DNA from: a virus
Strand: one strand, 5' to 3'
Length of the DNA: 24,439 nt
IMG/VR virus record: IMGVR_UViG_3300022689_000470
Location: 1-24,439 of that record
The notes under the pieces are model-generated. The model searched no databases and was not told where the DNA came from. It saw nothing but the letters and a program-made list of their open reading frames with translations. The position numbers and the translations under genes are program-made. Positions 1,783 through 8,272 of the stretch are shown here, piece after piece. Each line of letters starts with the position of its first letter. Position 1 is the stretch's first letter.

Positions 1783-2127
1783 CTATCCGATCCGTTGAGC
1801 GCCGCGGGCGCTGGCCTGCTCGCTGCGCCAGGCGTCAATGATCGCGATGGCGCCGGTGCGCGTCGCGCGGTGGTATTCGACCCGCCCGCGGGCTTCGGCC
1901 TCCTCCTCGACCGCCTCGATGTGGTCGCAGTGAGCCCGCGCCCAGTCTTCTTTCGCCGGGTTGCTGGTGCAGGCCGCCGGCGCGCGGCGGCGCAATTCGG
2001 ACAGCACCCGCTTGGTCTTCGCCTCCGCGCGGACCAGATCCGCCGCGGCCGAGGCCGCCTTCTTCGCCTCGTCCTCGCCAATCGCCGCCAGCGCGGCTTC
2101 GACCATATCGTCCGTCACGAGGCTCAT
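1783..2127 (-). CDS. Small hypothetical protein downstream of recT
   Basis: A 114-residue Ala/Glu-rich, probably helical protein; I do not recognise its family. About residues 15-45 (EDEAKKAASAAADLVRAEAK) could form an amphipathic helix or coiled coil, and an acidic stretch EAVEEEAEARGRVEYHRA follows near residues 71-88. The ATG overlaps the recT stop as ATGA, so it is translationally coupled to recT, and it ends 10 bases before the XRE regulator. Small helical proteins in this position of phage recombination operons are common but uncharacterised; a role accessory to recombination is only inferred from position. Confidence 0.7.
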   Translation of the reverse strand: MSLVTDDMVEAALAAIGEDEAKKAASAAADLVRAEAKTKRVLSELRRRAPAACTSNPAKEDWARAHCDHIEAVEEEAEARGRVEYHRATRTGAIAIIDAWRSEQASARGAQRIG

Positions 2128-3020
2128 GGCGCAGCCTCCGCGAGCTCGGCGTCACGCAGCGCCTGTTCCCGCGCCTCCATCGCCTGCTTGACCTCCAGCG
2201 CGTCGCCTTCGTTCTCGATCCAGAACTGCTTCAGCGACTCCCGGTTCGTCCGCCGGAACCAGTCCAGCTTGGCGCTGCCGGGGCAGTCCCGGATAAAGGC
2301 CATGAGCTTGTCGGCGACCTCGCCCGGCGGCCACGCCTCAAGCGGGTGCTGCGGGTCCAGCAGGAAGGTCAGCGCGCGCCCTCCGGCCCGCTTGGCGCGG
2401 GCGTTCGCCTCTTCATGCGCCAGCGCCTCGGCCGCAGTCTCGAACGTCGTCTGCGCGACCTCCTCGGGCGCGTAAAGATCGTTGAACGCATCCGGCCAGC
2501 CCTTGCGCAACGCCTGCCGCTCGGCCGCGATGGCGATCATGTGGCGCGGCATGTCGGCCCATTTGCTGCCAGCCGATTTCTTGCCGGCGGCCTCGTCGAA
2601 GGCCCACTCTTCGGTGACGGGCGCGAACTCGGTCCAGAACGCCACGCCGGGAACGCGGAACCAGCGCCCGGCGCGCAGCTTGTTGACGTGCACCGTGCAT
2701 TTGACGATCCCGTCCGGGTTTGTCGGCGACTTCAGCGCCTCATCGATCTCGTATTCCGGCGGATGCTCGTCCGGCGCATAGGTGTCGTGCCGCTCGGCGA
2801 TCGCGCGCAGCCCGTCAATGCCGACGACCAGCGCCACCCGGCGCTTCTCACGGCTCTTGGCGCTGAACACGATCGGGCTCGCTTGCCCGCGGAACGGGTC
2901 CAGCGCGTTGCGCTTGCACAGCTCCACGAACATTTCGAACTCATCCGGCGTCAGATCGTTGGCGATCGTGCGCTTGATCAGGGCGATCTGGGCGGGGGAA
3001 TATTGCGTCAGGGCGTTCAT
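2124..3020 (-). CDS. recT: RecT/Bet-family single-strand annealing protein
   Basis: A 298-residue phage recombinase of the RecT/lambda Bet family, which pairs complementary single strands during phage recombination. Diagnostic parts are the N-terminal LTPDEFEMFVELCKRNALDPF, then VALVVGIDGLRAIAERHDTY, KCTVHVNK, FWTEFAPVT, and the WADMPRHMIAIAAERQALRK helix near residues 155-175. AGGAG lies 6 bases upstream of the ATG. It follows the Gp157-like gene by 9 bases and overlaps the next gene by four. No classical partner exonuclease (lambda Exo or RecE type) is visible in the left operon; the only nuclease recognised in the window is the VRR-NUC protein at 7213-7668. Confidence 0.93.
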   Translation of the reverse strand: MNALTQYSPAQIALIKRTIANDLTPDEFEMFVELCKRNALDPFRGQASPIVFSAKSREKRRVALVVGIDGLRAIAERHDTYAPDEHPPEYEIDEALKSPTNPDGIVKCTVHVNKLRAGRWFRVPGVAFWTEFAPVTEEWAFDEAAGKKSAGSKWADMPRHMIAIAAERQALRKGWPDAFNDLYAPEEVAQTTFETAAEALAHEEANARAKRAGGRALTFLLDPQHPLEAWPPGEVADKLMAFIRDCPGSAKLDWFRRTNRESLKQFWIENEGDALEVKQAMEAREQALRDAELAEAAP

Positions 3021-3029
3021 CGCCGTCTC

Positions 3030-3569
3030 CTATCGGCGCCGGACGCTGAGCGTCGGCGCGGCGTTGTCCAAGGTCGCGCCGGGGACGGCTTCGCCTTCCG
3101 CCAGCGCCTTGGTGAGCGCCGCCCGGTCGAGCGCGCGTTTCGTCGCGAAAAAGCGGGCGGGAATGTCGTGTTCATCCGCCACGTTGAGCGCCGGGCGCCG
3201 ATCCGCCAGCGTCAGCGTCGCGCTCGGCAGCCGCAGCGTGCGGATTTCCGCCACGCTCATCGCCTGCTCGATCACCGCGCGCCGCGCCTCCAGACGCTTT
3301 TTCGTCCGCGCCTCCCGGCGCTTGAGATCGTCCAGGCGCGCACGGATCCCGTCCAGCATCAGCTGGTCTTCATCAATCTGATCGAGAACCCCTTCAACCG
3401 CCTCGGCGAACGAGGTCTCGCCCTCGATCACATCGCTCATGAAGCCTTCATCGTCCGCCGCCAGCGCGCCGAGCGATGCGCGCAGGCGCGCGACGGCTTC
3501 GGCTTCGCGCTGCACGTCGGGCTGACGCTCGGGCTTGCGCGTCGTTTCGGCGTCATCAGCAGTCATCAT
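3030..3569 (-). CDS. Gp157-family (Siphovirus Gp157) protein
   Basis: A 179-residue protein matching the Siphovirus Gp157 family pattern: FAEAVEGVLDQIDEDQLML at about residues 54-72, a charged helical segment RLDDLKRREARTKKRLEARR, then RTLRLPSATLTLADRRPAL, followed by a C-terminal DIPARFF...LDRAALTKAL segment. Family members occur beside recT and ssDNA-binding genes in many siphophages; the biochemical role is not settled. Two tandem ATGs occur (3567-3569 and 3564-3566). GGAG is 3 bases from the first and 6 from the second, so the second may be the real start. The ATG overlaps the TGA of an open frame coming from upstream (3566-3757). Confidence 0.85.
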   Translation of the reverse strand: MMTADDAETTRKPERQPDVQREAEAVARLRASLGALAADDEGFMSDVIEGETSFAEAVEGVLDQIDEDQLMLDGIRARLDDLKRREARTKKRLEARRAVIEQAMSVAEIRTLRLPSATLTLADRRPALNVADEHDIPARFFATKRALDRAALTKALAEGEAVPGATLDNAAPTLSVRRR

Positions 3570-3757
3570 GCTCTCCGAAAAGGCCGTCCGGGCGGGGCGG
3601 GAGGGGACGAGGGGGCCCCGCCCGGACGATCACGCGCGGCTGGAAGGGGGCGCCGCGCGGATCGGGTCAGAGCTTGCTCGGCGAAAGGATCGAACTCGCG
3701 GCTGATCCGGAACTCGTAGACGCCGGGCTCAAGGTCGAACTGCTCGTGCGGCTTGCC
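3566..3757 (-). pseudogene. Open frame without start codon, -1 to the upstream gene
   Basis: In the frame -1 to the gene at 3667-4191, a convincing protein-like stretch runs from about 3757: GKPHEQFDLEPGVYEFRISR then EFDPFAEQAL, then a Pro/Arg-rich tail. It ends in a TGA at 3568-3566 that overlaps the ATG of the Gp157-like gene. The frame is open from 3808, but I find no ATG, GTG, TTG or CTG in it. Over the same bases the annotated frame of the upstream gene encodes a Ser-rich, low-information tail. This suggests an indel relative to an ancestral gene (or genes), or a non-canonical frameshift. No canonical slippery heptamer is present in the overlap. Confidence 0.5.
3585..3628 (-). repeat. 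14-bp perfect inverted repeat with G-rich loop (possible attenuator)
   Basis: CGTCCGGGCGGGGC at 3585-3598 is the exact reverse complement of 3615-3628, with a 16-base loop. On the minus strand the stem is followed by GCC and TTTT, 7 bases before the GGAG of the Gp157-like gene, so it could act as a terminator or attenuator inside the leftward operon. The plus strand from 3590 to 3615 has G-runs of 3, 4, 3, 4 and 5 separated by 1, 1, 1 and 4 bases, which fits a G-quadruplex consensus. The T-run is short, so terminator function is uncertain. Confidence 0.5.
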
Positions 3758-4191
3758 TGCAGGACTTCCAGGTGCGCGCGGCCGATATCGGCGGCGAGCG
3801 CGAAATAATCATGACGGCCGGCGGCGCTGGCGGCGTTGCGCCGGCGGCGGGCTTCCGCCTCAGCGTCCTTGACCGCGCCGGACTCCGCCCGGCCGCAGCG
3901 CGCCGCGCCCTCGAACAGGTCGAAGACGATCGTGAACGCGCCCGTCTCGCCGTCGATCCCGCTGGTCTTTTCCAGATGACCGCAGAGATAATCGGCGATG
4001 CTTTCCGCGATGCAGAGCGTCGTGTGCTCGTCCAGGCCGAACTCGGCCAGCACGCCGCTCAGCGCCTTGACGCCGACCAGCGGGGCCTCGAGGGCGTCTG
4101 ACAGCCCGACGATCTGCGCGACCTCCGCGTCGGCGGCGCGAGCCTTCGCAAGCTCGTGCCGGTTCGCGGCTTCGATGGGGTCGTAGGGCAT
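3667..4191 (-). CDS. First gene of leftward operon, unknown, apparent 3' frameshift
   Basis: A 174-residue protein I do not recognise. It starts at the ATG at 4191, with AGGAG 7 bases upstream and the operator/promoter region just beyond. Residues 1-145 look like a normal soluble protein (ANRHELAKARAADAEVAQIV; LDEHTTLCIAESIADYLCGH; GAFTIVFDLFEGAARCG). From residue 146 it becomes a run of Ser/Thr (SRTSSSTLSPASTSSGSAAS), while the -1 frame of the same bases encodes a more protein-like segment, so the last 28 codons may be out of frame. It occupies the slot of lambda N, the first gene from PL, but it is not Arg-rich and I see no basis for calling it an antiterminator. Confidence 0.65.
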   Translation of the reverse strand: MPYDPIEAANRHELAKARAADAEVAQIVGLSDALEAPLVGVKALSGVLAEFGLDEHTTLCIAESIADYLCGHLEKTSGIDGETGAFTIVFDLFEGAARCGRAESGAVKDAEAEARRRRNAASAAGRHDYFALAADIGRAHLEVLQASRTSSSTLSPASTSSGSAASSILSPSKL

Positions 4192-4216
4192 GGCGTGTCT
4201 CCTCTGTGGTGAGGAG

Positions 4217-4245
4217 ACAGTACGCACTATGGGAACTCTCGTCAA
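4217..4245 (-). promoter_or_regulatory. Candidate leftward early promoter (PL-like)
   Basis: On the minus strand, TTGACG (4245-4240) is followed 17 bases later by TACTGT (4222-4217), upstream of the first gene of the leftward operon at 4191. The -35 is good and the -10 is weak, but the placement of operator OL1 exactly across the spacer and -10 supports it. Confidence 0.5.
4220..4236. promoter_or_regulatory. Left operator OL1 (17-bp immunity operator)
   Basis: GTACGCACTATGGGAAC fits the consensus GTNCSCRMTRWGSGWAC shared with four other sites, at 4254, 6185, 6253 and, degenerately, 6219. It fills most of the spacer of the candidate leftward promoter and overlaps its -10, so a bound repressor would block transcription of the recombination operon. 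The centre is 34 bp from OL2. Confidence 0.75.
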
Positions 4246-4253
4246 ACGAAAAA

Positions 4254-4270
4254 GTGCGCAATAAGGGAAC
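4254..4270. promoter_or_regulatory. Left operator OL2 (17-bp immunity operator)
   Basis: GTGCGCAATAAGGGAAC is a second copy of the 17-bp operator, 34 bp centre to centre from OL1 and just upstream of the PL-like -35. Over 18 bases starting at each GT, the two left sites match at 15. It is the less symmetrical of the two. Confidence 0.7.
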
Positions 4271-4289
4271 TTTTTTGCGCCGCCCCGAT

Positions 4290-4520
4290 TCAGACTTTGG
4301 GGAAGGGACTGTCGACGCCGAGCCGGCGGTCGAGATAGGCCACGATCGAGGCCGTCAGCCGTTCGGACTGATCGTTCATGTCCAGGATTGCGTGGCGGCC
4401 GGTCTTGTTGTTCACAAAAAGAACCGCGCCGGGCAGCGTGTGCGACGTCACGCCGACGTCGAGCGCCCACTTCATGTAACGCGCCAGCGTCGGATGGCCG
4501 CCGAACGGATAGGCGGGCAT
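4290..4520 (-). CDS. Small protein paired with HicB-like gene
   Basis: A 76-residue protein starting one base after the stop of the HicB-like gene, so the two form a tight pair. It is not a recognisable HicA: no short dsRNA-binding fold with the G-S-H-H pattern is seen. Visible features are an N-terminal GGHPTLARYMKWALDVGV, a central strand GAVLFVNNKTGRHAILDM, and a C-terminal helix ending AYLDRRLGVDSPFP. I recall similar small proteins with a C-terminal YDRRLG...SPFP next to HicB-like genes in alphaproteobacteria, but cannot name a family. As the last gene of the lysogeny cassette it ends just before the left operators. A toxin or effector role is inference from pairing only. Confidence 0.75.
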   Translation of the reverse strand: MPAYPFGGHPTLARYMKWALDVGVTSHTLPGAVLFVNNKTGRHAILDMNDQSERLTASIVAYLDRRLGVDSPFPKV

Positions 4521-4521
4521 G

Positions 4522-4818
4522 TCAGGCCGCGCAGAGCGCCATCTTGATGTCCGCGCCGCCCAGCTCTTCAGGCGCGTCCCAGTCTTCCGCCGGCGCGCCG
4601 CAGCTTTCAAACAGGTCGAAGAAGCGCTGCGGGGCCGGGCCGATCCCGGCGAAGGCCTCGCCGTGGATCCTGCGCGTATAGTCGGCCTCCCGCACGAGCG
4701 TGCGGTCGAAGCGCTCGCGCAGGTCATGGGCGGTCTGCGCCTGGGCGGCGATATCATGCTCCAGGCACTGAGCGATCCAGGCCGGGCCTTCCCGATAAAC
4801 GACGATACGCAGTTCCAT
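4522..4818 (-). CDS. HicB-like antitoxin-family protein
   Basis: A 98-residue protein whose N-terminus (MELRIVVYREGPAWIAQCLE, then HDIAAQAQT) matches the partial RNase H-like fold of HicB-type antitoxins: a strand, the W-A-Q-C-L-E strand, and the D-I-A-A-Q segment followed by a helix. The C-terminal part (PQRFFDLFESC, then EDWDAPEELGG) replaces the DNA-binding tail of standard HicB and is unassigned. GAGGAAA lies 7 bases before the ATG, and a candidate promoter sits at 4843-4871. HicB is normally the antitoxin of a HicA ribonuclease; here the downstream partner is not HicA-like, so this may be an orphan HicB or a variant pair. Confidence 0.7.
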   Translation of the reverse strand: MELRIVVYREGPAWIAQCLEHDIAAQAQTAHDLRERFDRTLVREADYTRRIHGEAFAGIGPAPQRFFDLFESCGAPAEDWDAPEELGGADIKMALCAA

Positions 4819-4842
4819 GGCTCTTTCCTCGTGCGGCCGGCG

Positions 4843-4871
4843 GACATAGCGCCCGGCAGCCTGATCGGCAA
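4843..4871 (-). promoter_or_regulatory. Candidate promoter of the HicB-like pair
   Basis: On the minus strand, TTGCCG (4871-4866) and TATGTC (4848-4843) are separated by 17 bases and lie 25 bases upstream of the ATG at 4818. It would let the HicB-like pair be transcribed independently of the repressor and lipoprotein genes. This is a consensus match only. Confidence 0.4.
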
Positions 4872-4926
4872 GTCTTAAGCCTTCCTCATTAACACGGGGA
4901 TGAGCCGGCGCGTCAAATCCCGCGCG

Positions 4927-5265
4927 TCAGGCGTCGCAATTGGCGCTGACGGCGCGCTCCAGCGCGCTGCGTTCGCCCTTGGCCTGGGCCAGCTCGCCCT
5001 CCGCGTTCGCGCCGAAAACCGAGCCCAGAGGCAAAAGCACCAAGAACACCGAGGCCGCATCGGCCGTCGCCGCATTGTTCTGCCGGCGCGTCAAGGCGGT
5101 CTCCCGCTCGCGCGCCTCGGCGAGGCGCTGGCGCGTTTCCTCGCAACTGAGGTGGTTGAACTCCGCCGCGCTGACGGAGACCGGTGCGACCGAGGCCGCG
5201 CGCGGCGCGCAGGCGGTCATGGCAAGCGCGGCGGCTGACAGGGCGATGATTGCCGGACGGTGCAT
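4927..5265 (-). CDS. Small lipoprotein in the immunity region
   Basis: A 112-residue protein with a lipoprotein signal peptide: a positive start MHRP, hydrophobic IIALSAAALAM and a lipobox ending TAC (Cys19). No Asp follows the Cys, so outer-membrane sorting is expected. The mature part has CEETRQRLAEARERETALTR, a hydrophobic stretch VFLVLLPLGSVFGA around residues 73-86, and a charged segment ending with a second Cys near the C-terminus (SANCDA). This resembles small alphaproteobacterial lipoproteins of unknown function. AGGAG lies 7 bases upstream, and the start is only two bases from the stop of the preceding lipoprotein gene. Expression from the prophage (lysogenic conversion or exclusion) is inferred from position. 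Confidence 0.8.
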   Translation of the reverse strand: MHRPAIIALSAAALAMTACAPRAASVAPVSVSAAEFNHLSCEETRQRLAEARERETALTRRQNNAATADAASVFLVLLPLGSVFGANAEGELAQAKGERSALERAVSANCDA

Positions 5266-5267
5266 GA

Positions 5268-5774
5268 TTACTCTCCTATCGCGAGCAGGTCAGCAAGCAC
5301 AGACCCGGTTCGGGCGTGCTCGGGGTCATAAGGCAAGTGATATGCTTCCATCTCCGCGCGAACGGCCGCGCGGGCGTGATTAGGGGTAAATTTATCGCCG
5401 AACGCCGCCCAGCTGTTTCGGTAGACCAGAAACGTGTCGCGGCCGCCGTTCGCGGCCAGCCCGTCCGCTCCGAACGCCAACCAGCCGACCGTCCCGTCAT
5501 AGTCGTAGCCGCCCGCAACGATGCCCACGATCGGGATCATTGAAAGCGCATTGCTGGAACTGGTTATGCGATGCCACGTCCAAACCGTCTCGCCCCCACC
5601 GTTCGTGGAGACCATGTCGGGCTGGCCGAGCGCCTCATAAGCGCCTTGACGATCCGTGCGCTGATCGAGCAGCGCTTGGATCGCAAGCGGATCCTCGATC
5701 GCCGCCGGGCCGTGATGCCCTGTGCAGCCCGCCAGAGCCAAAGCCGCAACAGCAGATATGACAGCCGCTTTCAT
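5268..5774 (-). CDS. BamE/SmpA-like lipoprotein in the immunity region
   Basis: A 168-residue lipoprotein: signal MKAAVISAVAALALAGC with an ideal LAGC lipobox (Cys17) and no Asp at +2. Residues 36-70 (LLDQRTDRQGAYEALGQPDM then GETVWTWHRI) follow the SmpA/BamE-like repeat in which a short helix precedes the LG-P-D turn and a W-x-W/Y strand. A glycine/aliphatic segment SMIPIVGIVAGG follows at about 78-89, then a soluble C-terminal domain. It directly follows the CI-like repressor on the same strand (77 bases apart) and is coupled to the next lipoprotein. Bacterial BamE acts in the outer-membrane BAM complex. A phage copy here could alter the surface or block superinfection, which is inference. 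Confidence 0.8.
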   Translation of the reverse strand: MKAAVISAVAALALAGCTGHHGPAAIEDPLAIQALLDQRTDRQGAYEALGQPDMVSTNGGGETVWTWHRITSSSNALSMIPIVGIVAGGYDYDGTVGWLAFGADGLAANGGRDTFLVYRNSWAAFGDKFTPNHARAAVRAEMEAYHLPYDPEHARTGSVLADLLAIGE

Positions 5775-5851
5775 GATTCCGCCCGTATCGCGTGCGGCGC
5801 TTTATCGCCGTCGTCGATACAACGGAAAGGCGCAGGCGAACCCGTCGCGGG

Positions 5852-6184
5852 TCAGCCCGCTTTTTTGTCGTCCTGATCGCCCGCCCGCGCGCGCACGAGC
5901 GTGTGGATGCTGGCTTGCTCGTCGCGCGTCATGTGGCTCCAGAAGCGAATGACATCGGCAAGCTGCGGATCCTTATCGGCCGCGCCGGGCGGCTGAAATA
6001 ATTGCGCCACCTCGATTTCGAGCGCCTGGGCGGCCCCCTCCAGCACGTCGGCGTTATAGCGGCGCTTTCCCAGCTCCCACTCCGACACCCGGCTTTTCGT
6101 CGCGCCGAGCTGCGCGCCCAGCTCCTCAAGCGTCAGGCCCCGATGCTTGCGCCATTCACGCAGATAAAACCGTGTGTTCGCCAT
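5852..6184 (-). CDS. CI-like repressor, HTH only (no autocleavage domain)
   Basis: A 110-residue protein with an N-terminal HTH_XRE (YLREWRKHRGLTLEELGAQL, then TKSRVSEWELGKRRYNADVL, and AAQALEIEVAQLF) and a short C-terminal region VIRFWSHMTRDEQASIHTLV that may dimerise. It sits divergent to a Cro-like gene across an operator cluster, the classic place of the prophage repressor. No S24/LexA-type Ser-Lys peptidase domain is present, so induction should not follow RecA-stimulated self-cleavage. ATG at 6184 begins immediately next to operator OR3 (6185-6201), and I see no Shine-Dalgarno there. A bound repressor could therefore control its own gene. Confidence 0.85.
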   Translation of the reverse strand: MANTRFYLREWRKHRGLTLEELGAQLGATKSRVSEWELGKRRYNADVLEGAAQALEIEVAQLFQPPGAADKDPQLADVIRFWSHMTRDEQASIHTLVRARAGDQDDKKAG

Positions 6185-6201
6185 GTCCGCACTATGCGTA
6201 C
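6185..6201. promoter_or_regulatory. Right operator OR3 (17-bp immunity operator)
   Basis: GTCCGCACTATGCGTAC: arms GTCCGCA and TGCGTAC pair at six of seven positions around CTA. It directly abuts the start codon of the CI-like repressor, so it probably mediates autoregulation. The centre at 6193 is 34 bp from the middle site and 68 bp from OR1. Confidence 0.75.
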
Positions 6202-6218
6202 AGGCGGCGGAGCTGTCG

Positions 6219-6235
6219 TGACCCCTATAGGGCAC
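6219..6235. promoter_or_regulatory. Degenerate middle operator OR2
   Basis: TGACCCCTATAGGGCAC is centred at 6227, exactly midway between the two outer right operators, and contains the perfect palindrome CCCTATAGGG (6223-6232). It keeps the C-C-C / GGG-AC core but departs from the 17-bp consensus at the outer left GT. Its embedded TATAGG is a possible -10 on both strands. Confidence 0.45.
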
Positions 6236-6251
6236 AAAGCGCTTGCGTAAA
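6224..6251 (-). promoter_or_regulatory. Candidate repressor-maintenance promoter
   Basis: On the minus strand, TTTACG (6251-6246) and TATAGG (6229-6224) are 16 bases apart and would produce a short leader into the CI-like gene. The -10 lies inside the degenerate middle operator. This is a modest consensus match supported by position. Confidence 0.35.
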
Positions 6252-6252
6252 G

Positions 6253-6269
6253 GTTCCCGATGTGGGAAC
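6253..6269. promoter_or_regulatory. Right operator OR1 (17-bp immunity operator)
   Basis: GTTCCCGATGTGGGAAC has perfect 6-bp arms GTTCCC/GGGAAC around five bases and ends 9 bases before the ATG of the Cro-like gene. It is the most symmetrical of the five sites, so probably the strongest. Confidence 0.75.
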
Positions 6270-6278
6270 TCTTGTCGC

Positions 6279-6497
6279 ATGGCAATCGAACAGCTTCGCA
6301 AAACCGGTCTCACTCAGTCAGCGCTGGCCGCGCGGGTCGGGCTGTCGAAGACGTATCTCAGCACCTTGCTGAATACGCCCTCCCGCACGCCGTCGCTGCG
6401 GGTCGCGATCGCGATCGAAGACGCCACGGACGGGCTGATCCCGGCGCGCTGGTGGATCGAGCGCGGCGAGACCGAGCGCGAGGAGGCCGGCGCATGA
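6279..6497 (+). CDS. Cro-like small HTH regulator
   Basis: A 72-residue DNA-binding protein: MAIEQLRKTGLTQSALAARV, then GLSKTYLSTLLNT, an extended arm, VAIAIEDATDG and LIPARWW. This is the compact XRE/Cro pattern, and the LIPARWW end is common in YdaS/Cro-like phage regulators. ATG at 6279 is chosen; an upstream in-frame TTG at 6243 would put the OR1 operator inside the coding region. There is no clear Shine-Dalgarno before 6279. It is transcribed rightward, divergent from the CI-like gene, and heads the early-right region. Expected role: lytic switch regulator competing for the same operators. Confidence 0.8.
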   Translation: MAIEQLRKTGLTQSALAARVGLSKTYLSTLLNTPSRTPSLRVAIAIEDATDGLIPARWWIERGETEREEAGA

Positions 6498-6502
6498 GCG
6501 GG

Positions 6503-6703
6503 CTAGTCGAGCGGCACGATTTCGGCCGGGTCTTCGTCCAGCAGCGCCAGGATGCATTCCGCCATGCAGAGCGCGTCCTGACGCGTGACCACGACCCGGC
6601 GATGGGCGCCGCCCTCCAGATCCGCGGCGATCAACAGATTGCCGCCCTTGGTAAGCCGCACCCGAATCTCCACCGCAAAACCCGCCACCTCTTCGCCGAA
6701 CAT
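6503..6703 (-). CDS. Small hypothetical protein, antisense within the early-right region
   Basis: A 66-residue protein starting at the ATG at 6703, with GGGAGGG 5 bases upstream; a longer version from 6763 lacks such a site. Residues 9-40 alternate as strands (AVEIRVRLTKGGNLLIAADL; HRRVVVTRQDA), followed by a Cys-containing helix ALCMAECILALLDEDP. I do not recognise the family. It lies on the minus strand between cro (ends 6497) and the plus-strand gene at 6849, convergent with cro. Its transcript, if not terminated, would run antisense through cro into the right operators. Confidence 0.7.
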   Translation of the reverse strand: MFGEEVAGFAVEIRVRLTKGGNLLIAADLEGGAHRRVVVTRQDALCMAECILALLDEDPAEIVPLD

Positions 6704-6848
6704 CACCGCCCTCCCTCGCGTCATGGGGGAATAAACAGCGGGCGCGAGGAAAACCTGTCGCATGTGAGTCCGTTAACCATCTGGTTTTGAAGCGATTTTC
6801 AACCCGGGCGTGCAGCACAGGCGCGCCGCAACCCGAAGGATCAAAATA

Positions 6849-7124
6849 ATGACAGCCACGAGCGAATACCTGAGCCGCCTGACCCGGAACCCGCTTTTTG
6901 ACGCGGTCCAGCTGACGATACAAGGCGACGCGCCGGCGGACCCGGACGCGCTGCGCGAGATCGCTGCGGCCTTGACGACGCAAGCCCGCGCTGAGGAGGC
7001 GGTTAAGGAGAGCGCGGGCCTGGACGAGGCGGCGATCCGCAGTCTGGTGCGCGATGAAATCGCCGACGCCTTCCTGAAGGCGCTGGTCATGTTGGCGCTC
7101 TCGACCGAGCTCGAGGCCCTCTGA
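6849..7124 (+). CDS. Small acidic hypothetical protein
   Basis: A 91-residue acidic, probably all-helical protein with no family I recognise. It contains FDAVQLTIQGDAPADPDALR and, near residues 50-85, LDEAAIRSLVRDEIADAFLK, then ALVMLALSTELEAL, which resembles a small dimerisation helix. ATG at 6849 has AAGGA 9 bases upstream. It is transcribed divergently from the gene at 6503-6703. The intervening 145 bases hold a small palindrome AACCATCTGGTT (6775-6786) but no promoter I can support. It precedes the replication operon. Confidence 0.65.
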   Translation: MTATSEYLSRLTRNPLFDAVQLTIQGDAPADPDALREIAAALTTQARAEEAVKESAGLDEAAIRSLVRDEIADAFLKALVMLALSTELEAL

Positions 7125-7212
7125 CATTTCACCATCCGTTGCGGAGCCGAAAAACGGCTTAAACGCAGTTATACCGATTCGCCTTACAATGTAAAGACAA
7201 AAGGAGGGGGCC

Positions 7213-7668
7213 ATGTCTGAGCGCCTGACCCCGGCCCAGCTGCACCGGGTGCGGCCCCGCCCGCGCAAGCCGCGCCGGAAGCCCTTGCGCCGCGAGGCGG
7301 TGTTGCAGGAGCAGGTCATTCGCTGGCTCGACAGCCATCTCGTCGAAGGCGAGGTGGTTCATATCCGCAATGAAAGCCGCGCCAAGCTGGACTGCGTGAA
7401 AGGCAAGGCGGCGGGGATCAACAAGGGCGCGCCGGATCTGCTGGTGTTCCTCCCGCACGGCCGCACGGTGATGATCGAGCTGAAAGCGCCTAAGGGGCCG
7501 AACGGGGAAAAGCCCGGCTATCAAAGCCCGGCGCAGAAAGACTTTCAGGCGCGCGCCGAGGCGCTGGGCTTTGCTTACACCGTATGCCGCAGCGTCGAAG
7601 AGGCGCGCACCGCGCTGGAGGCCGCCGGCGCCGCGCTTTTGCCCGAGCTGAAGAGGGCGGCGGCTTGA
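7213..7668 (+). CDS. VRR-NUC domain nuclease
   Basis: A 151-residue protein with a PD-(D/E)XK nuclease core of the VRR-NUC type: an N-terminal helix EAVLQEQVIRWLDSHL, then NKGAPDLLVFLP (PD near residues 76-77), MIELKAP (E-x-K near 89-91), and SPAQKDFQARAEALGFAYTV followed by CRSVEEA. Phage VRR-NUC proteins act as structure-specific or Holliday-junction-type endonucleases. The basic N-terminus (VRPRPRKPRRKPLRR) probably binds DNA. A strong AGGAGG precedes the ATG. It begins the rightward replication operon, overlapping the next small gene by four bases, and is the only nuclease I recognise that could work with RecT. Confidence 0.9.
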   Translation: MSERLTPAQLHRVRPRPRKPRRKPLRREAVLQEQVIRWLDSHLVEGEVVHIRNESRAKLDCVKGKAAGINKGAPDLLVFLPHGRTVMIELKAPKGPNGEKPGYQSPAQKDFQARAEALGFAYTVCRSVEEARTALEAAGAALLPELKRAAA

Positions 7669-7835
7669 GCTATCCCGCTTTTCCGTTCGGCGCCCGCTCG
7701 CTGCCCAGCCTGCGCCAGCGCGGCATGATCGAAGAGATGCACGCCGCCGGGCGCACGATCGCAGAGATCGCCCGCCTGACCGGGCTTCCGCGCGATTTGG
7801 TCGCGTCCGTCCTGACCGGCGGGGTTGTGCGATGA
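7665..7835 (+). CDS. Small HTH-like protein (TTG start)
   Basis: A 56-residue protein starting at TTG 7665, which overlaps the VRR-NUC stop as TTGA; GAGGGCGG lies just upstream. Residues 28-50 (GRTIAEIARLTGLPRDLVAS) look like a helix-turn-helix, related in pattern to the N-terminal HTH-like segment of the next protein. It overlaps the next gene by four bases (ATGA), so it lies inside a chain of coupled genes. Function is unknown, possibly DNA binding at the phage origin. Confidence 0.65.
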   Translation: MSYPAFPFGARSLPSLRQRGMIEEMHAAGRTIAEIARLTGLPRDLVASVLTGGVVR

Positions 7836-8272
7836 CCGGCGCCCCGCTCGATGAAACCGCCGCGCGCCGTCGCGCGCAGGAGCTTTTGACCTACGCCGTT
7901 TCGGCTGAAGACGTGGCGGAGCGCACCGGGCTTTCCCTGAGCGCCGTCCTGGCGATGCGGGGCGATTTGCGGGAGCCGGAGCCGGAGCCTGAACCGCCGC
8001 GCCCGCGCTCGCCCATGACGCGCGTGATGCGCATCAAGCAGGAGGTTGCGGACAAGCACGGGCTGGCGATCCGCGAGATGATCGGCCCGTGCCGCAAGCG
8101 GCCTCTGGTATACGCCCGTTTTGAACTGATGGCGCGCCTGCGCCAGGAAACGCGGCTGTCTCTGCATGCTATCGGCCGGCACTGCGGCGGGCGCGATCAT
8201 TCCACGGTCGTTCACGGGATTAAGCGCCACCTGGACAGGCTTGAGCGCGAAGCCCGGGGGCGCGCGCCGTGA
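7832..8272 (+). CDS. DnaA domain IV-like origin-binding protein
   Basis: A 146-residue protein whose C-terminal half (about residues 66-135) matches the DNA-binding domain IV of DnaA: EVADKHGLAIREMIGPCRKR, ARFELMARLRQETRLSLHAI and the signature GGRDHSTVVHG at 119-129. The AAA+ ATPase domain of DnaA is absent. Residues 21-44 (EDVAERTGLSLSAVLAMRG) form a second HTH-like element, joined by a PEPEPEPP linker (about 49-58). It is coupled to the preceding small HTH gene by ATGA and to the DnaB-like helicase by GTGA. It could recognise DnaA-box-like sites and recruit the phage helicase, or compete with host DnaA. Confidence 0.88.
   Translation: MTGAPLDETAARRRAQELLTYAVSAEDVAERTGLSLSAVLAMRGDLREPEPEPEPPRPRSPMTRVMRIKQEVADKHGLAIREMIGPCRKRPLVYARFELMARLRQETRLSLHAIGRHCGGRDHSTVVHGIKRHLDRLEREARGRAP

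Follow-up and report, generated by a model that had tools for sequence, protein, structure and literature searches.

A predicted lambda-type immunity switch with operators 34 bp apart around the -35 boxes of its early promoters in the viral record IMGVR_UViG_3300022689_000470

The operators of the rhizobial phage 16-3 are of the form ACAA/TTGT. In phage lambda, distances measured from the sequence record (NC_001416) place the operator centres of the right cluster (OR) 24 bp (OR1 to OR2) and 23 bp (OR2 to OR3) apart, with the centre of OR2 42 bp from the cI start. The restriction-modification controller protein C.Csp231I, according to the available part of one report (PMC4321490), binds two 15-bp sites separated by an 18-bp spacer, from which we calculated an operator interval of 33 bp; a 6-bp deletion abolished binding of the second dimer, the length of the spacer mattered and its sequence did not, and a U-bend was proposed in that part of the report, which found no obvious cooperativity between the sites. 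The available part of another report (PMC4824078) describes its gene as leaderless, with the left site activating and the right site repressing its own promoter. Here, we describe the putative immunity region of IMGVR_UViG_3300022689_000470, a viral DNA of 24,439 nt with a guanine plus cytosine content of 67%, which was analysed over its whole length (hereafter, the window) and in which 17-bp operators were found 34 bp apart around predicted -35 boxes.

The window probably contains, and we hold this with good confidence, the immunity switch of a lambda-type temperate phage, with a short C.Csp231I-like CI and the order operator, -35, operator at each of the early promoters PL (leftward) and PR (rightward). 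Its elements, including the predicted cI promoter (PRM) and the left operators (OL), are as follows; HTH denotes helix-turn-helix, pLDDT the predicted local distance difference test, and the ranks were obtained with two operator matrices described below.

4217..4222, minus strand: PL -10 box TACTGT, 17 bp after the -35 (from the sequence; weak match).
4220..4236, minus strand: OL1 operator, GTTCCCATAGTGCGTAC on the minus strand, within the PL -35/-10 spacer (exact match; rank 3 with the first matrix, 2 with the second).
4240..4245, minus strand: PL -35 box TTGACG, between OL1 and OL2 (from the sequence; -35 at the equivalent place in relatives).
4254..4270, minus strand: OL2 operator, reading GTTCCCTTATTGCGCAC on that strand, 34 bp from OL1 and on the upstream side of the PL -35 (exact match; rank 5 with both matrices).
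5852..6184, minus strand: CI-like repressor of 110 amino acids, HTH plus two C-terminal helices (PF01381, E 5.7e-10; structure model, pLDDT 88.9).
6176..6192, unstranded: possible extra site overlapping OR3 and the cI start codon (rank 1 with both matrices; three mismatches to the consensus of the earlier note).
6185..6201, minus strand: OR3 operator, GTACGCATAGTGCGGAC, directly adjoining the cI start codon, with the proposed PRM -10 inside it (exact match; rank 2 with the first matrix, 3 with the second).
6191..6196, minus strand: proposed PRM -10 box CATAGT, 17 bp after ACGACA and 6 nt ahead of the cI ATG, giving a leaderless mRNA (sequence and pattern count).
6214..6219, minus strand: proposed PRM -35 box ACGACA (promoter-pattern count in cI upstream regions).
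6219..6235, minus strand: OR2, with a good OR1-proximal half GTGCCC and a poor distal half, 34 bp from both OR1 and OR3 (best half-site at +34).
6243..6248, plus strand: PR -35 box TTGCGT, between OR2 and OR1 (from the sequence; relatives also have a -35 in the OR gap).
6253..6269, plus strand: OR1 operator, GTTCCCGATGTGGGAAC (exact match; rank 4 with both matrices).
6267..6272, plus strand: tentative PR -10 box AACTCT, 6 nt ahead of the cro ATG (from the sequence; weak).
6279..6497, plus strand: Cro-like HTH protein of 72 amino acids (PF01381, E 4.4e-8).

PL on the minus strand reads OL2, 8 bases, TTGACG, 3 bases, OL1, with TACTGT 17 bp past the -35, and PR on the plus strand reads OR2, 7 bases, TTGCGT, 4 bases, OR1. 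Both thus have operator, -35 and operator with 34 bp between the centres, OR2 being a half-site, and OR3 lies 34 bp beyond OR2, touching the cI start codon. An earlier note on this DNA had proposed the four 17-mers at 4220-4236, 4254-4270, 6185-6201 and 6253-6269; the coordinates are right, its consensus is matched exactly, and the centre distances of 34 bp (left) and 68 bp (right) are correct. The promoter TTGACG/TACTGT that it saw overlapped by the left pair has both hexamers on the minus strand with a 17-bp spacer. The open reading frames (ORFs) and the PF01381 matches agree with its placing of the right cluster, whose predicted operators lie between divergent CI-like and Cro-like HTH genes, and the second cluster (4220-4270) stands at a leftward promoter upstream of the 3667-4191, Gp157, and RecT genes. 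The sites look like immunity operators in an OL/OR layout, which is that of lambda with another operator sequence.

The four sites were examined in the whole window by pattern and matrix scans. The looser pattern GTNCSCNNTNNGSGNAC gave four forward matches, precisely the four sites, with none in reverse and none for the pattern read backwards. The pattern of the earlier note with up to three mismatches did not discriminate, giving 16 matches where shuffled sequence gave a mean of 11.9. A first matrix was built from 29 sites at 10 other loci, without window sites; nine of the ten loci came from searches with a DNA pattern based on the proposed sites. With it, the four sites and 6176-6192 ranked 1-5 of 24,423 positions with scores of at least 11.2, the next being 6.46, and Markov sequences had a mean of 0.465 positions at that score level (maximum 3, n = 200). 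Because of the origin of those nine loci, the test was repeated with a second matrix, from nine sites at three loci (L082, L084, and L085) that protein similarity alone had brought up. The same five positions ranked 1-5 of 24,423, with a smaller margin (11.88 against 10.85) and a Markov mean of 1.0 (maximum 5, n = 200). The genome scan that the earlier note had called for therefore places its top five positions all in the two clusters, and the four 17-bp sites are confirmed as real.

The middle site of the right cluster is of another kind. The palindrome proposed at 6227 does exist, midway, as an imperfect 18-bp palindrome (6218-6235); as a 17-bp operator it is poor, and OR2 was rejected as a full operator because it ranked 1371 with the first and 1487 with the second matrix of 24,423 positions. 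Its half GTGCCC lies exactly 34 bp from OR1 and was the top half-site among 30 positions (score 7.3, next 1.5), so that OR is composed of two full sites and one half-site. The best OR half-site was found at +33 to +36 from OR1 in 18 of 20 related loci, against 2.7 expected from a 30-position search, in a set with pre-chosen OR1 positions that included near-duplicates and some OR pairs already seen. Beyond the distal half of OR2, the sequence runs ACGACA, 17 bases, CATAGT, 6 bases, and the cI ATG. The pattern [AG]CGAC[AG]-17-N6-N5..9-ATG occurred in 9 of 87 cI upstream regions (random stretches: mean 1.6, maximum 4), and the distal half of OR2 runs into this likely -35 of the cI promoter. As a separate observation, overlapping ATGCAT-type OR sites at 15/9/9 bp were seen upstream of CI in L136, L149, L150, and L155, unlike the 34-bp pair at the PL of these loci.

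The interval was then sought in other phages. A repressor alignment gave 80 viral loci, which with four named phages made 84 loci in 48 clusters (60% identity over 60 amino acids), and these were searched, with no consensus supplied, for pairs of like palindromes; a -35 in the gap was counted when at least 5 of its 6 positions matched. At the strict setting, pairs at 33-35 bp with a -35 in the gap were present in 10 of the 48 clusters, and in none of 20 Markov sets or in real far-downstream DNA. At the relaxed setting (32-36 bp), there were 15 clusters, against a Markov mean of 0.35 (maximum 2) and one in far-downstream DNA. The half-sites varied (GTTCGC, GTTCGG, GTTTGC, TTCGC, GTTACG, GTCACA, TTGGCA, TTTACG, ATGCAT, TAGCCA, and others), and the -35 stood at a fixed place within the gap of the pairs listed among CI relatives; the spacing is tied to promoter geometry, with the -35 box between two operators. 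The full layout is repeated in L072, with 34 + 34 bp at OR and 34 bp at OL; this locus was found through its OL pair, and its OR is independent of that. Scans with the 34-bp pattern gave five stretches in viral contigs, of which L001 and L004 had no repressor match nearby, and 35 in genome contigs: five with a strong HTH-model match near the pair (L062, L063, L071, L072, and L079), L061 with one about 4.5 kb off, L065 with a weak one (E 0.0079), and 28 with none. When 385 genomes of the class to which the L079 genome belongs were scanned for a strict GTTCGC pair at 19-49 bp, only the L079 genome had one.

The window CI had no S24/LexA-type C-terminal domain among Pfam matches up to E 0.1. Its model adds helices 73-84 and 87-109 C-terminally to the HTH (pLDDT 88.9). 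Among relatives with the spacing, an S24 domain was present in L137 (E 5e-10) and weak in L085, which is on the same contig as L003 (19.0 bits, cut-off 23.3); the CI of L072 had no S24 match in the Pfam search. C.Csp231I was the best of four PDB sequence matches to the window CI (E 7.3e-4, residues 8-101), a weak match nearly equalled by other HTH proteins, and came third, behind ClgR, in a fold search with the CI model (E 5.9e-4, template modelling score 0.51). Since the fold is common, this resemblance is a lead.

From this arrangement a mechanism can be proposed. With a CI dimer on OL1 or OR1 occupying the -35/-10 spacer and another CI unit on the far side of the -35, the block would be complete, and PL and PR would be shut in the lysogen. 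CI at OR2, whose centre is 43 bp from the cI start (42 in lambda), would activate PRM, and CI or Cro on OR3 would shut it; OR2 may be a half-site because its other half would serve as the -35 (ACGACA) of a leaderless PRM. Selection would maintain the step of about 34 bp, either because adjacent dimers pair or because polymerase has to reach the -35, with the operator sequence following the recognition helix. Looping between OL and OR over about 2 kb, also raised by the earlier note, has little support and none that is direct, because the window CI lacks an S24 match and the distance of the left pair varies in relatives (in those listed, it begins 247 to 1,320 bp away from where the CI match starts).

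The strongest alternative, which falls somewhat short of an even chance, is that the promoter alone sets the 34-bp step: one operator fits the -35/-10 spacer, the other lies just upstream of the -35, and the dimers are independent and do not touch. The fixed place of the -35 in the gap of the listed pairs, the shortness of the window CI with no S24 match, and the lack of obvious cooperativity in the available account of C.Csp231I are all consistent with this. However, promoter geometry does not force 34 bp, because lambda manages the same operator-promoter relation with 24 bp. Furthermore, OR2 and OR3 are 34 bp apart in the window and in L072 though no PR -35 lies between them, and the length of the spacer mattered for C.Csp231I. 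Going beyond the window, we propose tentatively, and lean against it at present, that the lambda-type switch has a second, widespread register, with short CI dimers about 34 bp apart (the lambda step plus one turn), the -35 free between them, an OR2 half-site fused to the cI -35, an operator sequence free to follow the helix, and dimers pairing without the C-terminal domain of lambda, perhaps by the DNA bend proposed for C.Csp231I.

It is unlikely that the palindromes are operators of Cro, or sites of another regulator, with CI acting elsewhere. The Cro recognition helix is similar (LSKTYLS vs ATKSRVS), so both proteins may bind. Nevertheless, the identity of the nine-residue CI recognition helix correlated with half-site similarity over 20 loci (Spearman 0.463, 0 of 5000 permutations) and over 16 dereplicated loci (0.441, 3 of 5000), in a comparison confined to CI helices, in which the helices of three loci with insertions were aligned by hand. 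Such covariation is what CI operators should show, and CI autoregulation predicts sites placed as these are, flanking the early promoters and in contact with the cI start codon. That the sites are a chance selection by eye from a GC-rich palindrome family is scarcely credible: the pattern count at three mismatches and the single Markov sequences reaching five positions at the threshold of the second matrix would allow it, and the ranks of 1-5 by two matrices from other loci, all inside two clusters, and the recurrence of the layout in L072, L079, Acetobacter phage phiAP1, and others speak against it.

Several observations weigh against the reading of the region as a CI-operated switch with a conserved spacing. 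CI binding, PRM activation, and dimer pairing at the window sites are inferred from sequence, and C.Csp231I, as noted, was described as showing no obvious cooperativity. No close relatives of the window CI, Cro, or RecT were retrieved from the viral and genome contigs. At the relaxed setting, 33 of the 48 clusters lacked a -35-containing pair at 32-36 bp; 7 clusters had a -35 in pairs spaced otherwise (Markov mean 1.55, maximum 4), and 6 had 24-bp pairs whose gap held no complete -35. The GTTCGC phages found by pattern showed 30-31 bp (L010, L018, L030, and L035) and also 26 bp. The earlier claim of a constant interval consequently holds in part: the 34-bp step is genuine and is found again with operators of unrelated sequence, but it is not strict, ranging over 32-36 bp among CI relatives and being 30-31 or 26 bp in certain GTTCGC phages. 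On these spacings a strictly invariant interval was rejected; 34 bp is the commonest value in the sample and no law. The half-site search had two exceptions (L087 and L148, best OR half-site at +44/45) and contained the near-duplicates L098/L043; L136/L149 and L151/L159 were near-duplicates both there and in the helix comparison. Finally, a strict promoter scan of 3000-7300 reported no promoter; it was set aside because its hexamer rule excludes TACTGT.

The remaining features of the region are as follows.

2124..3020, minus strand: RecT single-strand annealing protein (PF03837, E 1.1e-24).
3030..3569, minus strand: Gp157/Gam-like protein (PF05565, E 3.2e-17; phrog_253, E 6.5e-18).
3667..4191, minus strand: first gene of the PL unit, 174 amino acids, function unassigned (ORF, ATG at 4191, GGAG upstream).
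4290..5774, minus strand: four small genes on the cI strand between cI and OL, two lipoprotein-like (ORFs).

The 174-amino-acid protein had no match in a Pfam search and one weak match, to a family of unknown function, in PHROG (E 0.038). Profile searches against Pfam and PHROG assigned integrase, RecT, and Gp157 to the left part of the window; the right part contains genes for capsid, a lambda-family portal, a gpA-type terminase, and DnaB helicase. The lipoprotein-like genes at 4927-5265 and 5268-5774 on the cI strand have the position of rexAB in lambda and are candidates for expression in the lysogen. At 7832-8272, immediately ahead of the DnaB helicase gene, is encoded a small protein whose match is to the C-terminal, DNA-binding domain of the DnaA type (PF08299, E 4e-16). 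A DNA similarity search of 3600-7600 against phages gave no result.

Other repeats were seen during the scans. GTTCCC-N5-GGGAAC arrays were rejected as operators of the same kind, since in 15 of the 17 listed loci with a covering ORF the array sits inside an ORF of at least 335 amino acids; no repressor match nearby passed. Such arrays in long ORFs were found in L001, L006, L008, L009, L012, L013, L014, L017, L019, L021, L022, L029, and L031. Several of these ORFs resemble phage replication proteins (L001: PF04492), among them protein O, and by analogy the arrays may be origin repeats like those of lambda. In L062 (7491-7541) and L071 (1347-1397), an operator, TTGACG, and an operator at 34 bp stand ahead of toxin-antitoxin-like operons with an XRE antitoxin; the L062 toxin matches PF05016 (E 5.5e-5), and the L071 toxin had no Pfam match. 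Downstream of CI in L090, L091, L095, L140, L144, L123, L131, and L042, we observed palindromic repeat pairs at 24 bp without a complete -35 in the gap.

Searches of the open-licence PMC literature turned up no paper on a 34-bp operator spacing around the -35 in such phages, and no description of the register longer by one turn, of its return in loci whose operators differ, or of an OR2 half-site adjoining the cI -35; the switch itself is of a known kind. Because the spacing is conserved while the specificity changes, a phage switch can be examined for its geometry separately from its recognition code. For small HTH repressors, the set of loci provides recognition helices matched with their operators, and it offers a test of whether repressors without the C-terminal domain of lambda still act in pairs. 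It also makes the operators of uncharacterised phages easy to predict, by searching downstream of a short CI for a pair of similar palindromes that are spaced 32-36 bp and have a -35 between them.

As in lambda, cI and cro are divergent with OR sites between them, a second cluster stands at PL before recombination genes, operator 1 lies inside the -35/-10 spacer, and cI is separated from OL by genes on the cI strand. The steps are 34 bp in the window, whereas those of lambda are 24/23 bp (OR) and 24/20 bp (OL). The -35 in the window is free in a 17-bp gap, whereas at 24 bp operator 2 of lambda overlaps it; operator 2 of the window is accordingly displaced outwards by 10 bp, roughly one helical turn. 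The window also differs in its half-site OR2, its two OL sites instead of three, its CI of 110 amino acids with no S24 match, and its operator sequence. Rhizobial phage 16-3, in the available part of its report (PMC3694467), is likewise alphaproteobacterial with PL and PR under one C repressor, although the PR oligonucleotides printed there lack a GTNCSC operator. Acetobacter phage phiAP1 (LC644972, L043) has a short CI beside a divergent Cro-type gene, a left pair at 34 bp around TTGACC, and OR1 plus a half-site at +34; unlike in the window, its half-site is TTCGC and the site at the cI start is 60 bp from OR1. C.Csp231I recognises CTAAG-N5-CTTAG at a single operator pair, with no OL/OR clusters and no Cro, and the window has phage genes as neighbours and no restriction-modification genes. 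Nonetheless, like C.Csp231I (PDB 3lfp and 4jcx; helices H6 and H7 in the available description), the window CI is a short HTH protein with two extra C-terminal helices. The half-sites surround a 5-bp centre in both systems, and the operators are 33 bp apart for C.Csp231I and 34 bp in the window. By analogy, the window cI would be a leaderless gene with one activating and one repressing site, and OR2 and OR3 together look like the C.Csp231I operator box.

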